From a virus, in the IMG/VR virus record IMGVR_UViG_3300050821_002165, positions 1 through 30,752 of that record: a stretch of DNA of 30,752 nt. The stretch is one strand, 5' to 3'. The position numbers and the translations under genes were made by a program. Positions 2,270-20,796 of this stretch are shown in pieces (within the stretch, counting starts at the first letter, position 1; each line of letters opens with the position of its first letter). The notes below the pieces were generated by a model, which searched no databases, was not told the DNA's origin, and was given only the letters and a program-made list of their open reading frames with translations.

Positions 2270-2344
2270 TGGTGCCGACTGATGGGCTTGAACCACCGAC
2301 CTGATGCTTACAAGGCAACTGCTCTGCCACTGAGCTAAGAAGGC
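2270..2344 (-). tRNA. tRNA-Thr (anticodon TGT), somewhat degenerate
   Basis: Cloverleaf of 72 nt plus encoded CCA (2272-2270). D stem GCTC/GAGC; loop CTTGTAA gives anticodon TGT (Thr, ACA); T arm GGTGG TTCAAGC CCATC closes with one G-U. The acceptor stem GCCTTCT against AGTCGGC has two mismatches (positions 4-69 and 5-68), and the anticodon stem has one T-T mismatch. Ordinary bacterial tRNA-Thr would have GCCGACT here, so two adjacent changes have damaged the stem. It may be decaying or still usable. Confidence 0.8.
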
Positions 2345-2347
2345 AAT

Positions 2348-2395
2348 TGGTGCCCCCTGTCTTTCGACGCGTGCGATCATTGGGCACTCGGGGGC
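2348..2395 (-). ncRNA. CCA-ended three-way-junction element (tRNA-like)
   Basis: Reading leftward, GCCCCC (2395-2390) pairs with GGGGGC (2357-2352) and is followed by ACCA, exactly like a tRNA 3' end. Inside sit two hairpins: GTGC/GCAC with a 9-nt loop (2387-2371) and GTC/GAC with a GAAA tetraloop (2368-2359). No D or T-arm consensus remains inside. It lies between the permuted tRNA halves and tRNA-Thr with only a few bases between. It could be a shrunken tRNA or a processing element. Structure drawn by hand. Confidence 0.4.
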
Positions 2396-2397
2396 GT

Positions 2398-2467
2398 GTG
2401 ATTGCTCTACCAGACTGAGCTACACGCCGGATCAAAGCATGGCAGGATTCGAACCTGCGACCATCAC
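2398..2467 (-). tRNA. Circularly permuted tRNA or permuted tRNA fossil (3' half precedes 5' half)
   Basis: Leftward order is: anticodon-stem 3' strand GTGAT (2467-2463), variable GGTC, T arm GCAGG TTCGAAT CCTGC (2458-2442), acceptor 3' strand CATGCTT (2441-2435), linker TGATC (2434-2430), acceptor 5' strand CGGCGTG (2429-2423), TA, D arm GCTC/GAGC (2420-2404), A26, anticodon-stem 5' strand ATCAC (2402-2398). ATCAC pairs perfectly with GTGAT. The acceptor strands pair at 6 of 7 positions, two as G-U. No CCA is encoded after CATGCTT, and neither flank offers the conserved T33, so the anticodon cannot be read. A remnant of two tandem tRNA genes is the alternative. Confidence 0.5.
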
Positions 2468-2473
2468 GATTGG

Positions 2474-2770
2474 TTAGGCTGTCGGCGCAACAACCGGCGT
2501 GACAACAACAGGTGCAACAACATGTGGCGCAGACAATTTATTGATTGCGTCTGTTGCAGTCTGAATTTGAGTCTTCAGCGCCGCAATGTCTTCGTCAGCA
2601 ACGCCAACAGAAATTGTTTTTACGCCGTTCAAAAGTGAACAGAGCCAATCAAGTTTGTCTTCTACGATATCAAGCTGAGTCTTCGCCGCAGCGGGCGCTG
2701 TAGCTTTCACGGCTTGAGATAACGGCATGGCCGCTTCAAGTGCGCTTTCGGCTTTCGAAAATAACGACAT
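2474..2770 (-). CDS. Hypothetical protein, 98 aa, helical with Val/Pro/Ala tail
   Basis: ATG 2770 with AAGGAACATCA upstream. An amphipathic helical body (LDIVEDKLDWLCSLLNGVKT, then DEDIAALKTQIQTATDAINK) is followed by a low-complexity tail rich in VAPVV and VTPVV. The layout resembles small phage proteins with a coiled-coil body, function unknown. The stop (2474-2476) lies only 6 bp from the permuted tRNA element. Confidence 0.75.
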   Translation of the reverse strand: MSLFSKAESALEAAMPLSQAVKATAPAAAKTQLDIVEDKLDWLCSLLNGVKTISVGVADEDIAALKTQIQTATDAINKLSAPHVVAPVVVTPVVAPTA

Positions 2771-2926
2771 TGATGTTCCTTAAAAACTGGACTAGCTGCC
2801 ATGTCACCGCTTCTGCATCCAAAACGCATATTGCGTGGCTAGTGAAATTCAACGCCGGACACTTCACCGCAAAGCGTCCGGCTACATTACGCGTGCAGCC
2901 CTATAATCGCGGCGGCTGGTAGCTGA
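2771..2926. other. Intergenic, hairpin GCCGGAC / GTCCGGC
   Basis: A 7-bp perfect inverted repeat with a 15-nt loop lies at 2854-2882. No T run follows on either strand, so it is not a standard terminator. No ORF with a credible ribosome site was found in the gap. Confidence 0.3.
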
Positions 2927-3142
2927 TTAGTGAAGACCGTGAGTACCGATTGGACGAGCGCGGCCTGAAGCAATCGTGCGGACCATTCGCATTTCTTCAG
3001 GTGGGGGAGGAGGCGAGTTGTTGCTTTTTATGAAGTTGTCAACGCCAGATAATCCAGCTTCAAAACCCCATTCTCCCCGTTCGCTTCCGTATGGCCTTGC
3101 AAAGCGCGGGTTAGCGATTGCAGCCGCTAAAACCGCGTGCAT
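2927..3142 (-). CDS. Hypothetical protein, 71 aa, with polyproline run
   Basis: ATG 3142 preceded by TTAGAGGAA, a good ribosome site. Residues 42-48 hold a run of prolines (SPPPPPEEM). Otherwise the protein is rich in Gly and Arg (ASGRARPIGTHGLH). Polyproline runs slow ribosomes and usually need EF-P. No family recognised. Confidence 0.6.
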   Translation of the reverse strand: MHAVLAAAIANPRFARPYGSERGEWGFEAGLSGVDNFIKSNNSPPPPPEEMRMVRTIASGRARPIGTHGLH

Positions 3143-4356: not shown

Positions 4357-4805
4357 TCTGTATTAGCTACCAACCAATTGCCCAACAGCTTCGCGCAAAT
4401 CGCAGCCGCTTCTTCGGGTGTCTTCGCGTAGACAACTACGATTTCAAATCCCAACGCTCGTAGCTTCTCGTGCCGTTTTATTTGGTCATCACTCAACACA
4501 CCCTTTGCCGTCTTCAACTCAATCATCTTGAGAACACCACGCGGTAAGTAAATCCTGATATCAGTTTCACCGGCTTTCAATCCGCAAATCTTCGCCCTGT
4601 TGCCTGCACGCTTGCCAGCGTTCATGTCACCGGCAAATTCAAACACCCAACCGCCGTCTTGCCACTTATGGAATTCAGAGACTACCGCCGCCTGAAGCCG
4701 CCATTCTGGTGCTGGCTTTGGTCGGCGCGGTTTCTTGGGTTTGAAGAGTGGTCGGCCTTTTAATTGTTTTTTGTGGGGTTCTATCTCCCCCTGATTTTGG
4801 AACAT
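4338..4805 (-). CDS. VRR-NUC domain nuclease
   Basis: 155 residues. A basic N terminus (KGRPLFKPKKPRRPKP) leads into a PD-(D/E)XK-type VRR-NUC domain. The visible core is GDMNAG...GLKAGETDIRIYLP (Asp82), then MIELKTAKGVLSDDQ with Glu96, Lys98 and Gln108. Stand-alone VRR-NUC proteins in phages act as structure-specific DNA nucleases, often beside replication genes, as here with the primase-helicase upstream. ATG 4805 has no ribosome site and lies a few bases from a candidate -10, so the message may be leaderless or nearly so. Confidence 0.85.
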   Translation of the reverse strand: MFQNQGEIEPHKKQLKGRPLFKPKKPRRPKPAPEWRLQAAVVSEFHKWQDGGWVFEFAGDMNAGKRAGNRAKICGLKAGETDIRIYLPRGVLKMIELKTAKGVLSDDQIKRHEKLRALGFEIVVVYAKTPEEAAAICAKLLGNWLVANTDWKVRL

Positions 4806-4813
4806 ACTATTTA

Positions 4814-4830
4814 GGGTATAAGGTATACCC
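4814..4830. promoter_or_regulatory. 17-bp palindrome GGGTATA / TATACCC, candidate operator
   Basis: Seven-bp arms separated by AGG, ending 9 bp before the VRR-NUC start codon. On the minus strand the arms supply TATACC-type -10 sequences. The 7-3-7 design is the same as in the three TAGGGCG operators on the right, but the sequence differs. Confidence 0.4.
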
Positions 4831-4833
4831 CCC

Positions 4834-4852
4834 CTTTATTGTTACAATAAAG
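4834..4852. promoter_or_regulatory. Inverted repeat CTTTATTG / CAATAAAG (copy 1)
   Basis: Perfect 8-bp arms around TTA in the 159-bp gap between primase-helicase and VRR-NUC genes. The same arms recur at 4905-4925. No T run follows on the minus strand, so this copy is better explained as a protein-binding site than as a terminator. Confidence 0.45.
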
Positions 4853-4904
4853 TATTAAGCCTGAGTCTCTAGGCCAACTTGAATTTTTCGGTCTGCAAAA
4901 AAGA

Positions 4905-4925: not shown

Positions 4926-4964
4926 TACCCAACGGCATCATTACAGCCCGCAATGGTTTTGCAA

Positions 4965-7292
4965 TTAAGTATCGTTGCAAGAAAGTTTGGGCGAGTACCT
5001 GACACTTGGCCTGCCCTTACCCCCGGCAAGCTTTTTGTCTATTTGCTCTGTGTCAGTCAGAAACTTTACAGCGCCCTCGTAGTCTTGGTTTTTGGCTGAA
5101 GCGATGCCCTTCTTACGCCTAAGAACAGAGAACGGAATACCCTCTTTTCCAGACGCGTCAACGAATCCTAAAATAGTTTTGCATAGCGTTTCGAAGTCCG
5201 ACGAAGACATATGCTTGCGCACACCATCGTCTATCATGTCGATAGATCGTTGAACGATTGCCCACCCAAACTCTACATCTTCGACTTCTACGACAGGCCG
5301 ATTGGCGATACGGGAAATAGCCCGCACAGTAGCTATCTTTAGAGTCTGTTCCGCGCTTCGCCCAACAACGCCTTCATACTCTGGCTTGTCTGCCATGTAT
5401 TCAAGTTGCCAAGCCTCAATTTCTTTCCAGCGCTTTGCTGCACCTTCGCCCCACTCGCATTGGTGCATAATCGGCTTTTGCTTAGAGTCCCGCACGGCGA
5501 CATTTGAAAGATTCCCCTTGGCTGGCGCGGCTATGTAGGCTGCCTTCAACGCCTCTACCAATGCTGTTGGTGTCTTCAACAGGCTCTTGCCGTCTTGTCG
5601 CTTCGGCTGTTCTGTTGCGCCTATGATTGTGAGGCGGGCCATAAACCCGTCACCAAAATTCGATTCGGTGATACCGGCGTAGAATTCCGTTGGCGTTGAC
5701 ATTCCAAGCATTGACACGGTCGGGAACCATACGGGGTCGCCGCTGGAATCCTTCTTATCGTCTGCCTTTTCCTTGCCGGTCCATACGGATGTTGATTTGC
5801 TGTAGAGTTCCAACAACGACTTACGAATTGATCTTGCCCACGATGCTGCATTTTTGCCCGTCATTGATTGGAAGAGTACGCCGACTTCATCAAACGGCAT
5901 GACGAAGCACGGTCTACGACGCACAACCTTTTCTATCGCGCTATCGCTCGTTACGTCGTTGGGACCAATCAAATGGGACATACCCGCAGAGTGGCCCAAG
6001 ATTTCTATAGCCCTTCGCGGGTGATCTTTGCCAAATCCCGGCCCCGCTATTCCTATCATATAGATATTTAATCCAAGTTCTGTTGGTGTGACATACCTTC
6101 TCCCGAAGAAGGCCGAGAGAAATGTAATCGCGGCAATTGTCGCAAATTCCGGTACGGGCGCACGTGATGTTTCCAAAATCCATTGCGTGACTCCCTCTAA
6201 GAGTCCGCCTTGGTTTGGAAGATACCACGGGTCGGTTTTACCTCGCGGCGCTCGCACGGTTTCAAGCTTCGTCGCGCCTGCGTCATGCGCGATAGTCTCC
6301 GCTGCCATGACGGGGGCAATGAGCGGTTGGGAAACCGGCTTTGCCTTCGCCATGCTTCTAGAAATGAAACCAGCGATATCGAATCCGTCATCTGATGACT
6401 CCTCTTTGATTCCTAAGCGTTCGCACAAGAACGAAGTTGCCGCATACATATCGCAGCCCGTCGCCAACATAACCAAGTCAATCGGCGTGTGGGACTCGTT
6501 GCTGCCCCAATCCTTGATGCCTTCTGGATGAATTGAAACGTTCGCGTCTTCGACGCCGCGCCAATGAGCGATTGCACGATAGCCTTTGCCATGCTTCTTT
6601 AAGCCAGCCATTCGCAAATCAGGAACCCAAGCCGGTAGGTTCTTCAAAGCTGTGTCGTTGACTTCGCGCCAATAAGTTTCGCCCTCACCAGCAACCAGCC
6701 GGTGGTGTTCGTCATCAGGTTCGTAGCCGAACGGCGTTAGCGCAGTCGCTAGTAGCTCACCAATGTTATCCGGTAGCAGCGGCAGAGCGTCGATAGAAAC
6801 GCCTTCAAGCGTCTCGCTGCCAAGCCAATGGTAAGGTAAGCCAGTGTCGGGATGGATGGTTGGCGGAAGCACAGTTTGTCTGCCGTAGGCGAGAAGATCA
6901 ACCACCCTTGTTTTCCCAACTGAAAAGGGCGCTGAAACAACAGCCGGACTTCCTCTATAGAAAGCGGAGAAGCCTTTATTGCCACGTTTTTTTACCTCAC
7001 TGTCTGGTAACACCGCGAGCACTGCCGCCATAAGTTCGGAGTCATCGGTGTCAATGTCGATTACCTTCAGGTGGTGATCTAACGGAACGCACACACCAGC
7101 GTCCGGCCACGCAGACCACAATTCAACTTCGATGGGAGTAGGCAAGCGGTCGCAGAAGCGCTGCCACTCGCTTGTGCCCCACCACTCACGCATTCGGTAA
7201 TCACCGGGGCGCTTGGTGCCGGGCATGATGGGAATTGCAGCGTAGCCGTTGTCGATTAGTCGCGGGCCTGTTAGCGCGAAAGGTGAAGTCAA
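4965..7292 (-). CDS. Primase-helicase: Prim-Pol-like N terminus fused to DUF3987-type ATPase
   Basis: 775 residues. Residues 8-170 resemble the bifunctional primase/polymerase (AEP) domain, with the metal-binding motif DIDTDD at 79-84. The His expected in the following motif is not evident (GFSAFYRG instead), so priming activity is uncertain. Residues about 360-640 form a DUF3987-like P-loop helicase domain: Walker A GIAGPGFGKD (Lys422) and Walker B FVMPFDEVG (Asp468-Glu469). The C terminus (about 700-770) looks like a winged helix. It should prime and unwind DNA at the phage fork. It is the largest gene here and lies 3 bp after a small zinc-ribbon gene. Confidence 0.85.
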   Translation of the reverse strand: MTSPFALTGPRLIDNGYAAIPIMPGTKRPGDYRMREWWGTSEWQRFCDRLPTPIEVELWSAWPDAGVCVPLDHHLKVIDIDTDDSELMAAVLAVLPDSEVKKRGNKGFSAFYRGSPAVVSAPFSVGKTRVVDLLAYGRQTVLPPTIHPDTGLPYHWLGSETLEGVSIDALPLLPDNIGELLATALTPFGYEPDDEHHRLVAGEGETYWREVNDTALKNLPAWVPDLRMAGLKKHGKGYRAIAHWRGVEDANVSIHPEGIKDWGSNESHTPIDLVMLATGCDMYAATSFLCERLGIKEESSDDGFDIAGFISRSMAKAKPVSQPLIAPVMAAETIAHDAGATKLETVRAPRGKTDPWYLPNQGGLLEGVTQWILETSRAPVPEFATIAAITFLSAFFGRRYVTPTELGLNIYMIGIAGPGFGKDHPRRAIEILGHSAGMSHLIGPNDVTSDSAIEKVVRRRPCFVMPFDEVGVLFQSMTGKNAASWARSIRKSLLELYSKSTSVWTGKEKADDKKDSSGDPVWFPTVSMLGMSTPTEFYAGITESNFGDGFMARLTIIGATEQPKRQDGKSLLKTPTALVEALKAAYIAAPAKGNLSNVAVRDSKQKPIMHQCEWGEGAAKRWKEIEAWQLEYMADKPEYEGVVGRSAEQTLKIATVRAISRIANRPVVEVEDVEFGWAIVQRSIDMIDDGVRKHMSSSDFETLCKTILGFVDASGKEGIPFSVLRRKKGIASAKNQDYEGAVKFLTDTEQIDKKLAGGKGRPSVRYSPKLSCNDT

Positions 7293-7697: not shown

Positions 7698-7894
7698 AGT
7701 ATCTTCTTTATCAGGCGGGGTTTTTCCTTCGGGTCAAACTCTGCCCTGTGGATCAATCCAAATAACGCAGGGGGTGGGTACAGAAGAGACTCAAATTTTT
7801 TGTCATTGATTCTTTGTCTACCCCTGCGAAGTCCACCCATATCATTCTTGCCGTAAACAGTATTTGCACCGTTATAACTAACTCTCTTACTCAC
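7694..7894 (-). CDS. Hypothetical basic protein, 66 aa
   Basis: GTG 7894 start just downstream of the stop of 7896-8102, and ATGA overlap with the next gene. Strongly basic (MSKRVSYNGANTVYGKNDMG, then LRRGRQRIND). No domain recognised. Its place in a continuous coupled series supports it as real. Confidence 0.6.
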   Translation of the reverse strand: MSKRVSYNGANTVYGKNDMGGLRRGRQRINDKKFESLLYPPPALFGLIHRAEFDPKEKPRLIKKIL

Positions 7895-18921: not shown

Positions 18922-19091
18922 CCATTCTAGAAAACAATTCGTTGCGCGGACTCACGGGGCGTAGACGCTACCGCGATACGCAACACGGACTCATTCTTCA
19001 GGTTGAGCAATATTATTGGAATGCAACGCGGTGGGAATGCGATTGGTACGACGCTGCGGTTAGTGACGTGATGGCGTTTGAACTTGCATAG
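18918..19091 (+). CDS. Hypothetical protein, 57 aa
   Basis: ATG 18918 (ATGA). Sequence MTILENNSLRGLTGRRRYRD, TQHGLILQVEQYYWN, then WECDWYDAAVSDVMAFELA. The strand-rich pattern with W.WYDA is found in phage proteins of unknown role. It overlaps the helicase start by 14 bp. Confidence 0.6.
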   Translation: MTILENNSLRGLTGRRRYRDTQHGLILQVEQYYWNATRWECDWYDAAVSDVMAFELA

Positions 19092-20796
19092 TCTTCGCCC
19101 CTACCAATCCGAAGCGAACGCTGCGTTAAAGGACTACTGGCAATCTGGTGGTGAACACCCGCTTGTGGTTATGGCGACGGGTACCGGGAAAAGCTTGGTT
19201 CAAGCGTCTCTTGCCAAGGGATTGATTGACGACTTCGCGGGCTTGCGGATTCTTTCCGTTACGCACGTCAAAGAATTGATTGAACAAAACTACTTGGAAA
19301 TGTTGGGCGAGTGGCAGTTTGCACCTGCTGGCATTTACTCTGCCGGGCTTGGTCGCCGCGACTCCCGTTCGCAGATTCTATTTTGCGGGATTCAGTCGAT
19401 ACACAAGAAGGCCGCGTTAATCGGCCACGTCGATTTGTTGATGATAGACGAAGCACACTTGATTCCGAAGAACGCCGAAACGATGTACGGCAGATTCATT
19501 CAAGCTCTACTGGCTATCAATCCAGAGATGCGAATTGTTGGGTTCACTGCCACGCCTTACCGCACCGATAGTGGCAGGTTGGATGAGGGTGACGAACGAC
19601 TATTTACAGAGGTTGTTTATGAATATGGAATCGCCGACGGAATACGAGACGGTTATCTTGCTTCGCTGGTTTCGAAGGCTACAGCGACTGGATTTGATCT
19701 ATCTGGCGTTACAAGGCGGGGTGGTGAGTTTATTCCGGGTGCCCTCCAAGACGCCGTAGATAAAGAAGGAACAACCCGCGCCGCAGTTGCTGAAATCGTC
19801 GCTGCTGGAGTCAACCGTCGCTCGTGGCTGGCGTTCTGCGCTGGCGTTGCACACGCCGAACACGTCTGCAACGAGATACGTTCGCATGGGATTACGTGCG
19901 AAGTCATAACCAGCGACACGCCAAGCCACGAGCGGGCGCGACACTTGCGCGATTACAAGGCTGGCAAGATACGCTGTCTGACGAACAACAGTGTGTTAAC
20001 CACCGGCTTTAACGCTCCCGGTGTTGACCTGATAGCGGGATTGCGCCCTACCCTGTCGTGCGGCCTGTACGTTCAAATAGCGGGCCGGGGGACGCGTCCG
20101 ATCTACGCACCCGGTGCCAACATCTCTTCTATCGAAGGCCGCTTAGCGGGCATTGCAGGAGGCCCCAAGCCCAATTGCCTGTACCTAGACTTTGCGGGCA
20201 ACGTCATGCGCCACGGGCCGGTTGATGCCGTCACGCCGAAGAAGCCGGGTGAAGGAAACGGCGAAGCGCCTGTAAAGGAATGTCCGAACTGCCGTTCGCT
20301 CGTGCATATCAGCGCGAAGGTTTGCCCGGATTGCGGATTCAATTTTCCGCCCAACGAAAAGCCGAAGCACTCCGCTACGTCTGCGGCTGTTCCTATCCTG
20401 TCTACAGAAGCGCCGAAGTGGCTGAATGTCCAGAGCCGAAAATTCTACTATCACGAAAATCCAGAAGGCGCGGAGTCCGTTCGCATTGATTTTCTAGCCA
20501 ACTTTGTTTCGTACAAAATGTGGCTGTCAATCAACAAGGCCAAGAGCCGTTCGGATAAGTTCTGGCGTGACCACGTTGGCCGCGAGCCATACCCTGCAAG
20601 CGTTGAAGAATTTCTTGAACGATTCGGTGAGCTACGCGAGACAGCACAGATTCAAGTAAGACCGAAAGGGCGGTACTTTGAAATTGTCGGCATCAAACCG
20701 GCAGAGCAACACGCGGCACCGGGAATAGTGCCGCTAACTAAGCAGCTACCACCGCCGCAAGTACGCGGGTTGATTGATGACGACATACCATTTTAG
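19078..20796 (+). CDS. SF2 (DEAH-box) helicase with C-terminal zinc ribbon
   Basis: 572 residues from TTG 19078; TTG 19084 is an alternative. Motifs: Q-like RPYQ (7-10), Walker A ATGTGKS (33-39), DEAH (124-127), FTATPYR, and motif VI QIAGRGTRP. A zinc ribbon CPNCRSL...CPDCGFNFPP follows, then a C-terminal domain. Phage SF2 helicases of this build unwind or translocate on DNA or branched intermediates. It fits the Sak4/DUF669/exonuclease module directly upstream. Confidence 0.85.
   Translation: MNLHSLRPYQSEANAALKDYWQSGGEHPLVVMATGTGKSLVQASLAKGLIDDFAGLRILSVTHVKELIEQNYLEMLGEWQFAPAGIYSAGLGRRDSRSQILFCGIQSIHKKAALIGHVDLLMIDEAHLIPKNAETMYGRFIQALLAINPEMRIVGFTATPYRTDSGRLDEGDERLFTEVVYEYGIADGIRDGYLASLVSKATATGFDLSGVTRRGGEFIPGALQDAVDKEGTTRAAVAEIVAAGVNRRSWLAFCAGVAHAEHVCNEIRSHGITCEVITSDTPSHERARHLRDYKAGKIRCLTNNSVLTTGFNAPGVDLIAGLRPTLSCGLYVQIAGRGTRPIYAPGANISSIEGRLAGIAGGPKPNCLYLDFAGNVMRHGPVDAVTPKKPGEGNGEAPVKECPNCRSLVHISAKVCPDCGFNFPPNEKPKHSATSAAVPILSTEAPKWLNVQSRKFYYHENPEGAESVRIDFLANFVSYKMWLSINKAKSRSDKFWRDHVGREPYPASVEEFLERFGELRETAQIQVRPKGRYFEIVGIKPAEQHAAPGIVPLTKQLPPPQVRGLIDDDIPF

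Follow-up and report, generated by a model that had tools for sequence, protein, structure and literature searches.

The window analysed here, a stretch of viral DNA of 30,752 nt, carries on its minus strand a short sequence in which a T arm and its acceptor strand stand before, rather than after, a matching acceptor strand and D arm. Circularly permuted tRNA genes occur in red and green algae and archaea, and the initial annotation read the locus as a circularly permuted tRNA or the fossil of one, naming two tandem tRNAs that each lost a half as the main alternative. The locus raises the question of whether a tailed phage encodes a working tRNA in permuted order, carries the debris of decayed tRNA genes, or makes an RNA that has the outline of a tRNA without being one.

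Layout of the permuted module

The 70-nt permuted tRNA-like (YrlA-type) module (2398..2467, minus strand) is defined by its sequence, by a match to the Rfam family RF02553 and by covariation over five modules. In the direction of the RNA it opens with GTGAT (2463..2467), the 5′ side of a closing stem that corresponds to tRNA positions 39-43, followed by GGTC (2459-2462) and the T arm GCAGG-TTCGAAT-CCTGC (2442..2458), which has a canonical T loop and a stem paired 5/5 in all five modules. The acceptor 3′ strand CATGCTT (2435..2441) and the acceptor 5′ strand CGGCGTG (2423..2429) enclose a five-nucleotide acceptor loop, TGATC (2430..2434), and pair at six of seven positions, two of these pairs being G-U. 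TA (2421-2422) leads into the D arm GCTC-AGTCTGGTA-GAGC (2404..2420), in which the D-loop GG is invariant and the D stem is paired 4/4 in all five modules, and a single A (2403) separates this arm from ATCAC (2398..2402, tRNA positions 27-31), which closes the module with five Watson-Crick pairs to GTGAT. Every part lies on the minus strand where the initial annotation had placed it and the pairing is as it had claimed; its remarks that no CCA follows the acceptor strand and that neither flank offers T33 likewise agree with the sequence.

Neither ARAGORN nor Rfam at gathering thresholds calls the module, the only report being tRNA-Thr(TGT) at 2344-2270. The window copy contains a competing 7-bp pairing (GGCGTGT/ACACGCC) and the folding energy of its 70 nt is unremarkable alone (z -1.0); it is the comparative evidence that bears the case.

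Covariation in related phages

The window primase retrieves four viral contigs at 72-78% identity, three of which cover the module region. The same layout is present in L135 at 7709-7822, with an acceptor loop of 49 nt, and twice in L136, at 4740-4807 (5-nt loop) and 4958-5056 (36-nt loop); L138 is identical to L136 in the module region and carries both modules. A further relative, L194, was found via a conserved block upstream of the module and has its module at 4816-4890. These relatives were retrieved by primase or flanking-DNA homology, not by structure. The acceptor loops of 36 and 49 nt share a common sequence, TCGCGCCAAGTCGTATTT, inside a hairpin.

The covariation set comprises the modules of the window, L135 and L194 and the two of L136 (A and B), aligned after shortening the long acceptor loops to 5 nt and dropping one base from the variable loop of L194. 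Five sequences, two of them paralogues of one phage, are a small set, and the result still lies far outside both controls: the paired cells amount to 96.2% over the five modules as against 38-52% when the partners are slid, and the covariation score was reached by none of 500 shuffles. Two-sided changes are seen at 15 of the 21 pairs, including all five of the closing stem and five of the seven acceptor pairs, so that the compensatory changes across the acceptor and anticodon-position stems, which the initial annotation had named as a check, are found in the relatives. The residues of the elbow, i.e. the T- and D-loop motifs, are invariant over the five modules while the anticodon side varies, and in L136 A, L136 B and L194 the minimum-energy structure is the permuted cloverleaf. 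An alternative helix, of positions 1-11 with 30-41, has 7 bp in the window and 6 in L135, and is not adopted because only 2-5 bp of it exist in the remaining modules. As judged from this comparison of sequences, the permuted fold is one kept by compensatory changes in a phage lineage, and is neither chance nor decay.

The nearest named phages by primase, Rhizobium phage RHph_TM3_3_14B and Sinorhizobium phages NV1.1.1 and AP-16-3 (about 47% primase identity), yield no module at the scan threshold over the stretches covered. Nothing was gained from blastn of the L135 region against named phages, or from searching genome contigs with the window primase alignment and the conserved block.

Relation to YrlA

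The bacterial Y RNA YrlA combines a basal Ro60-binding stem with a tRNA-like domain, which is a binding partner of PNPase and a substrate of DusA and TruB (PMC8394870). It can be superposed on tRNA by circular permutation, making it a circularly permuted tRNA mimic (PMC11472068), and has been reported from several phages (PMC7765460). The modules described here resemble YrlA in the order T arm, acceptor hairpin, D arm, in the closing stem that takes the place of the anticodon stem, and in keeping the elbow motifs with no anticodon. They are unlike it in that the window has no detectable basal Ro60-binding stem and no rsr/Ro60 gene nearby, in the acceptor loops, which reach 36-49 nt in two relatives, in the two modules in series in one phage, and in the score of the window module, which falls under the gathering cut-off.

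With permissive thresholds Rfam reports RF02553 (YrlA) at 2466-2395 with 45 bits (E 4.9e-9), the match spanning the tRNA-like effector domain (model positions 23-89 of 114). The 45 bits are below the gathering score of 69, and this cut-off does not discriminate here since the directly Ro60-linked phage copies also lie below it, the best at 50 bits; equally, the bits alone are not proof, as tandem tRNAs score up to 36 with the same model. Among the relatives at E <= 0.1 only the L135 module is reported, and L136 A and B are not. We do not claim membership of RF02553, as the basal stem is not detected and the gathering score is not reached. The layout is nonetheless that of an already described class, the YrlA tRNA-like domain, known in phages and present here in a lineage with no detected Ro60 stem.

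We consider it likely that the element is noncoding and mimics a tRNA, following the architecture of the YrlA effector domain with its permuted T arm, acceptor hairpin and D arm, and by analogy it would work as that domain does. The RNA would fold into a tRNA-like elbow and work by attaching to proteins able to recognise the elbow or the acceptor stem of a tRNA. During infection its partners could include PNPase, the partner of the YrlA domain, or tRNA-modifying enzymes, as known for YrlA, and it might act as a decoy against tRNA-attacking nucleases; one paper has suggested the tRNA-like domain as a possible inhibitor of an anticodon nuclease (PMC7790460). Given that no basal stem for Ro60 is detectable, the RNA of this lineage is probably either a free mimic or one domain of a longer structured RNA running into the tRNA genes.

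Selection would in this case be maintaining a permuted tRNA mimic in phages separately from the Ro60-binding stem, the usual hallmark of Y RNAs, and the function of the tRNA-like half becomes testable alone, be it PNPase recruitment, a role as decoy (anticodon nucleases and other tRNA-cutting defences being the targets in question) or a place as a domain in a larger RNA. Y-RNA-type modules can also be mistaken for broken tRNAs, by a reader or by an annotation pipeline.

Alternative readings

The surroundings of the module bear on a different reading, in which it belongs as a single domain to a larger structured RNA of the phage and the permuted fold is only a recruiting or processing signal. 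Directly 3′ of the window module lies a stable GC-rich, three-way-junction-like fold (2350..2397, minus strand; for 2350-2399, z -2.54, with 1/200 shuffles equally stable), beyond which is an intact tRNA-Thr(TGT) with encoded CCA (2270..2344, minus strand), identified by ARAGORN and Rfam and syntenic in the relatives. L135 and L136 have in common a strongly folded region of about 140 nt after the module (L135:7823-7965, z -3.7, and L136:4808-4950, z -4.6), parts of which look cloverleaf-like; in L136 and L194 a conserved hairpin precedes the module, and L136 has two modules in series. Against this, the flanking folds are not conserved between the window and its relatives, no sequence counterpart of 2350..2397 being seen in them, whereas the module is, and we regard the reading as possible but on balance unlikely.

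Upstream, a 98-aa ORF with no family match (2474..2770, minus strand) ends 6 nt before the module and has no relative that we could find in the viral contigs. It is preceded by the conserved noncoding block of about 150 nt (2785..2935, minus strand), which is 87.5% identical to L136, contains a covarying terminator-like hairpin (2882-2854) and has counterparts at L136:4471-4617, L135:7605-7702 and L194:4690-4790 with the invariant stretch CAGCTACCAGCCGCCGCGATTATAGGGCTG. Elsewhere the window encodes replication and recombination genes, an integrase and a ParB-like gene, and no structural genes are recognisable among the ORFs tested; a search of viral contigs with its trypsin-like protein gave nothing.

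Could the module instead belong to a canonical Ro60-bound Y RNA, with a Ro60 gene that lies in the host or beyond the sequenced part of the phage? The window is part of a genome, those of related named phages being about 60 kb, and among 49 other viral contigs with a permuted module 24 encode TROVE/Ro60 and 5 others the TROVE-like DUF2828. The basal stem was assessed from the duplex energy of the flanks outside the closing stem relative to shuffles. TROVE-linked phage copies have a median z of -2.5, with 19/25 below -2, and tandem tRNAs a z of 0.09. In the window no such stem is detected, pairing being weak (z -0.83), and the four relatives range from -2.3 to -0.3, so that with L135 at -2.3 the absence among them is not absolute. 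TROVE (PF05731) is found neither on the seven lineage fragments, i.e. the window and six related fragments that are all incomplete, nor on the three nearest named phages, which are complete and themselves without a module at the scan threshold over the stretches covered; DUF2828 (PF11443) is likewise not found on the window or the four primase-found contigs, which are incomplete fragments. On these grounds a canonical Ro60-bound Y RNA appears quite unlikely.

A true circularly permuted tRNA gene of tailed phages, yielding a decoding tRNA, would need its acceptor loop cut out by RNase P and RNase Z, and an RNA ligase of the phage or the host to join its ends in the anticodon loop. The modules do recall the algal and archaeal genes, with the 3′ half before the 5′ half, acceptor and anticodon-position stems that pair and covary, and, in two relatives, acceptor loops of 36 and 49 nt that resemble intervening sequences. 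An RNA ligase is also encoded in the wider group: L138 has a small PF09414 RNA ligase domain protein (L138:769-1350, minus strand, 193 aa), with no counterpart at the syntenic position of the window, and an RtcB is encoded by Sinorhizobium phage AP-16-3, a more distant relative. Unlike the algal and archaeal genes, however, the modules have no T33, anticodon or CCA. Four modules have C at the U33 position and L194 has G, the flanks supply no common anticodon over the five, and the loop is not conserved. At 1-72 there is either a G-U pair or a C-U mismatch, and in two modules, the window's among them, the acceptor loop is only 5 nt. Nor does the window fragment give any match to RtcB or PF09414 RNA ligase, and we know of no bacterial enzyme that would join the ends of a permuted tRNA. 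The modules share strand and neighbourhood with a phage tRNA cluster (here tRNA-Met, -Pro and -Thr), yet they are missed by ARAGORN and the Rfam tRNA family, and encoded CCA follows none of the five although these phages encode CCA in their tRNA-Thr, -Met and -Pro genes. With U33 and encoded CCA missing in every module beside intact tRNAs that have CCA, a decoding tRNA is very unlikely. Of the designation 'circularly permuted tRNA' the order of the parts stands, but a gene for a working tRNA is not supported, there being no U33, CCA or conserved anticodon in the five modules and no RNA ligase match on the window fragment.

That the module is the decayed remains of two tandem tRNAs, each without one half, is suggested by its position in a tRNA cluster, and a 3′ half followed by a 5′ half is indeed how the middle of a tandem pair looks. 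The pattern 'T arm then D arm close behind', run over viral contigs, gave 98 loci that ARAGORN reads as two tandem tRNAs and 60 without any ARAGORN tRNA, which include some from named phages and the window itself. Taken together, these 60 exceed the tandem pairs in the length of the acceptor hairpin and in the quality of the closing stem. Halves of different tRNAs would not be expected to pair: when those of the 98 tandem phage tRNA pairs were re-paired, a closing stem of 5/5 with an acceptor stem of at least 6/7 arose once in 9,604 combinations (0.0104%), and it occurs in none of the 98 real pairs. The pairing is moreover kept in the relatives by compensatory changes, and in none of them do two complete tandem tRNAs, which the initial annotation had given as the refuting observation, occupy the module site. 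Both the fossil and the two half-lost tandem tRNAs of that annotation are thus rejected, and decay of this kind is highly improbable. A chance origin is rejected by the same re-pairing and by shuffling the window, 20 shuffled versions of which gave no matches in a permutation-aware scan. A remnant of an attachment site is judged unlikely, since neither half is missing, the two covary and about 21 kb separate the module from the integrase.

Permuted modules in other phages

Several phages carry the permuted RNA directly beside a TROVE/Ro60 or DUF2828 gene. Phages with Y-RNA-type modules but no TROVE often encode DUF2828, sometimes adjacent (L123 and L125, and the records of L007, L045, L098, L124, L157 and L175), and in L123 it occurs with DUF7788, a vWA domain. 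DUF2828 may be the counterpart of Ro60 in module phages without TROVE. Xanthomonas phage Olaya (L122, record 18939-19523) encodes an unannotated TROVE/vWA protein with three YrlA-like matches (50, 39.6 and 25.8 bits) immediately upstream of it. In many TROVE-linked copies (L023, L024, L059, L122, L147, L153 and others) the T arm is preceded at a short distance by a TTACTTC-like motif, which is a candidate for Ro60 binding and is absent from the window.

In L145, L146, L154, L170, L185 and L191, T-arm/D-arm units are arranged serially, with about 16-17 nt from each D arm to the next T arm, and look like tRNAs with very short anticodon arms. Lastly, the protein of Vibrio phage D482 annotated as 'RNA ligase' (L124:2414-2869) matches the anti-CBASS protein Acb1 (PF23474, E 9.5e-45), and its annotation therefore looks wrong.
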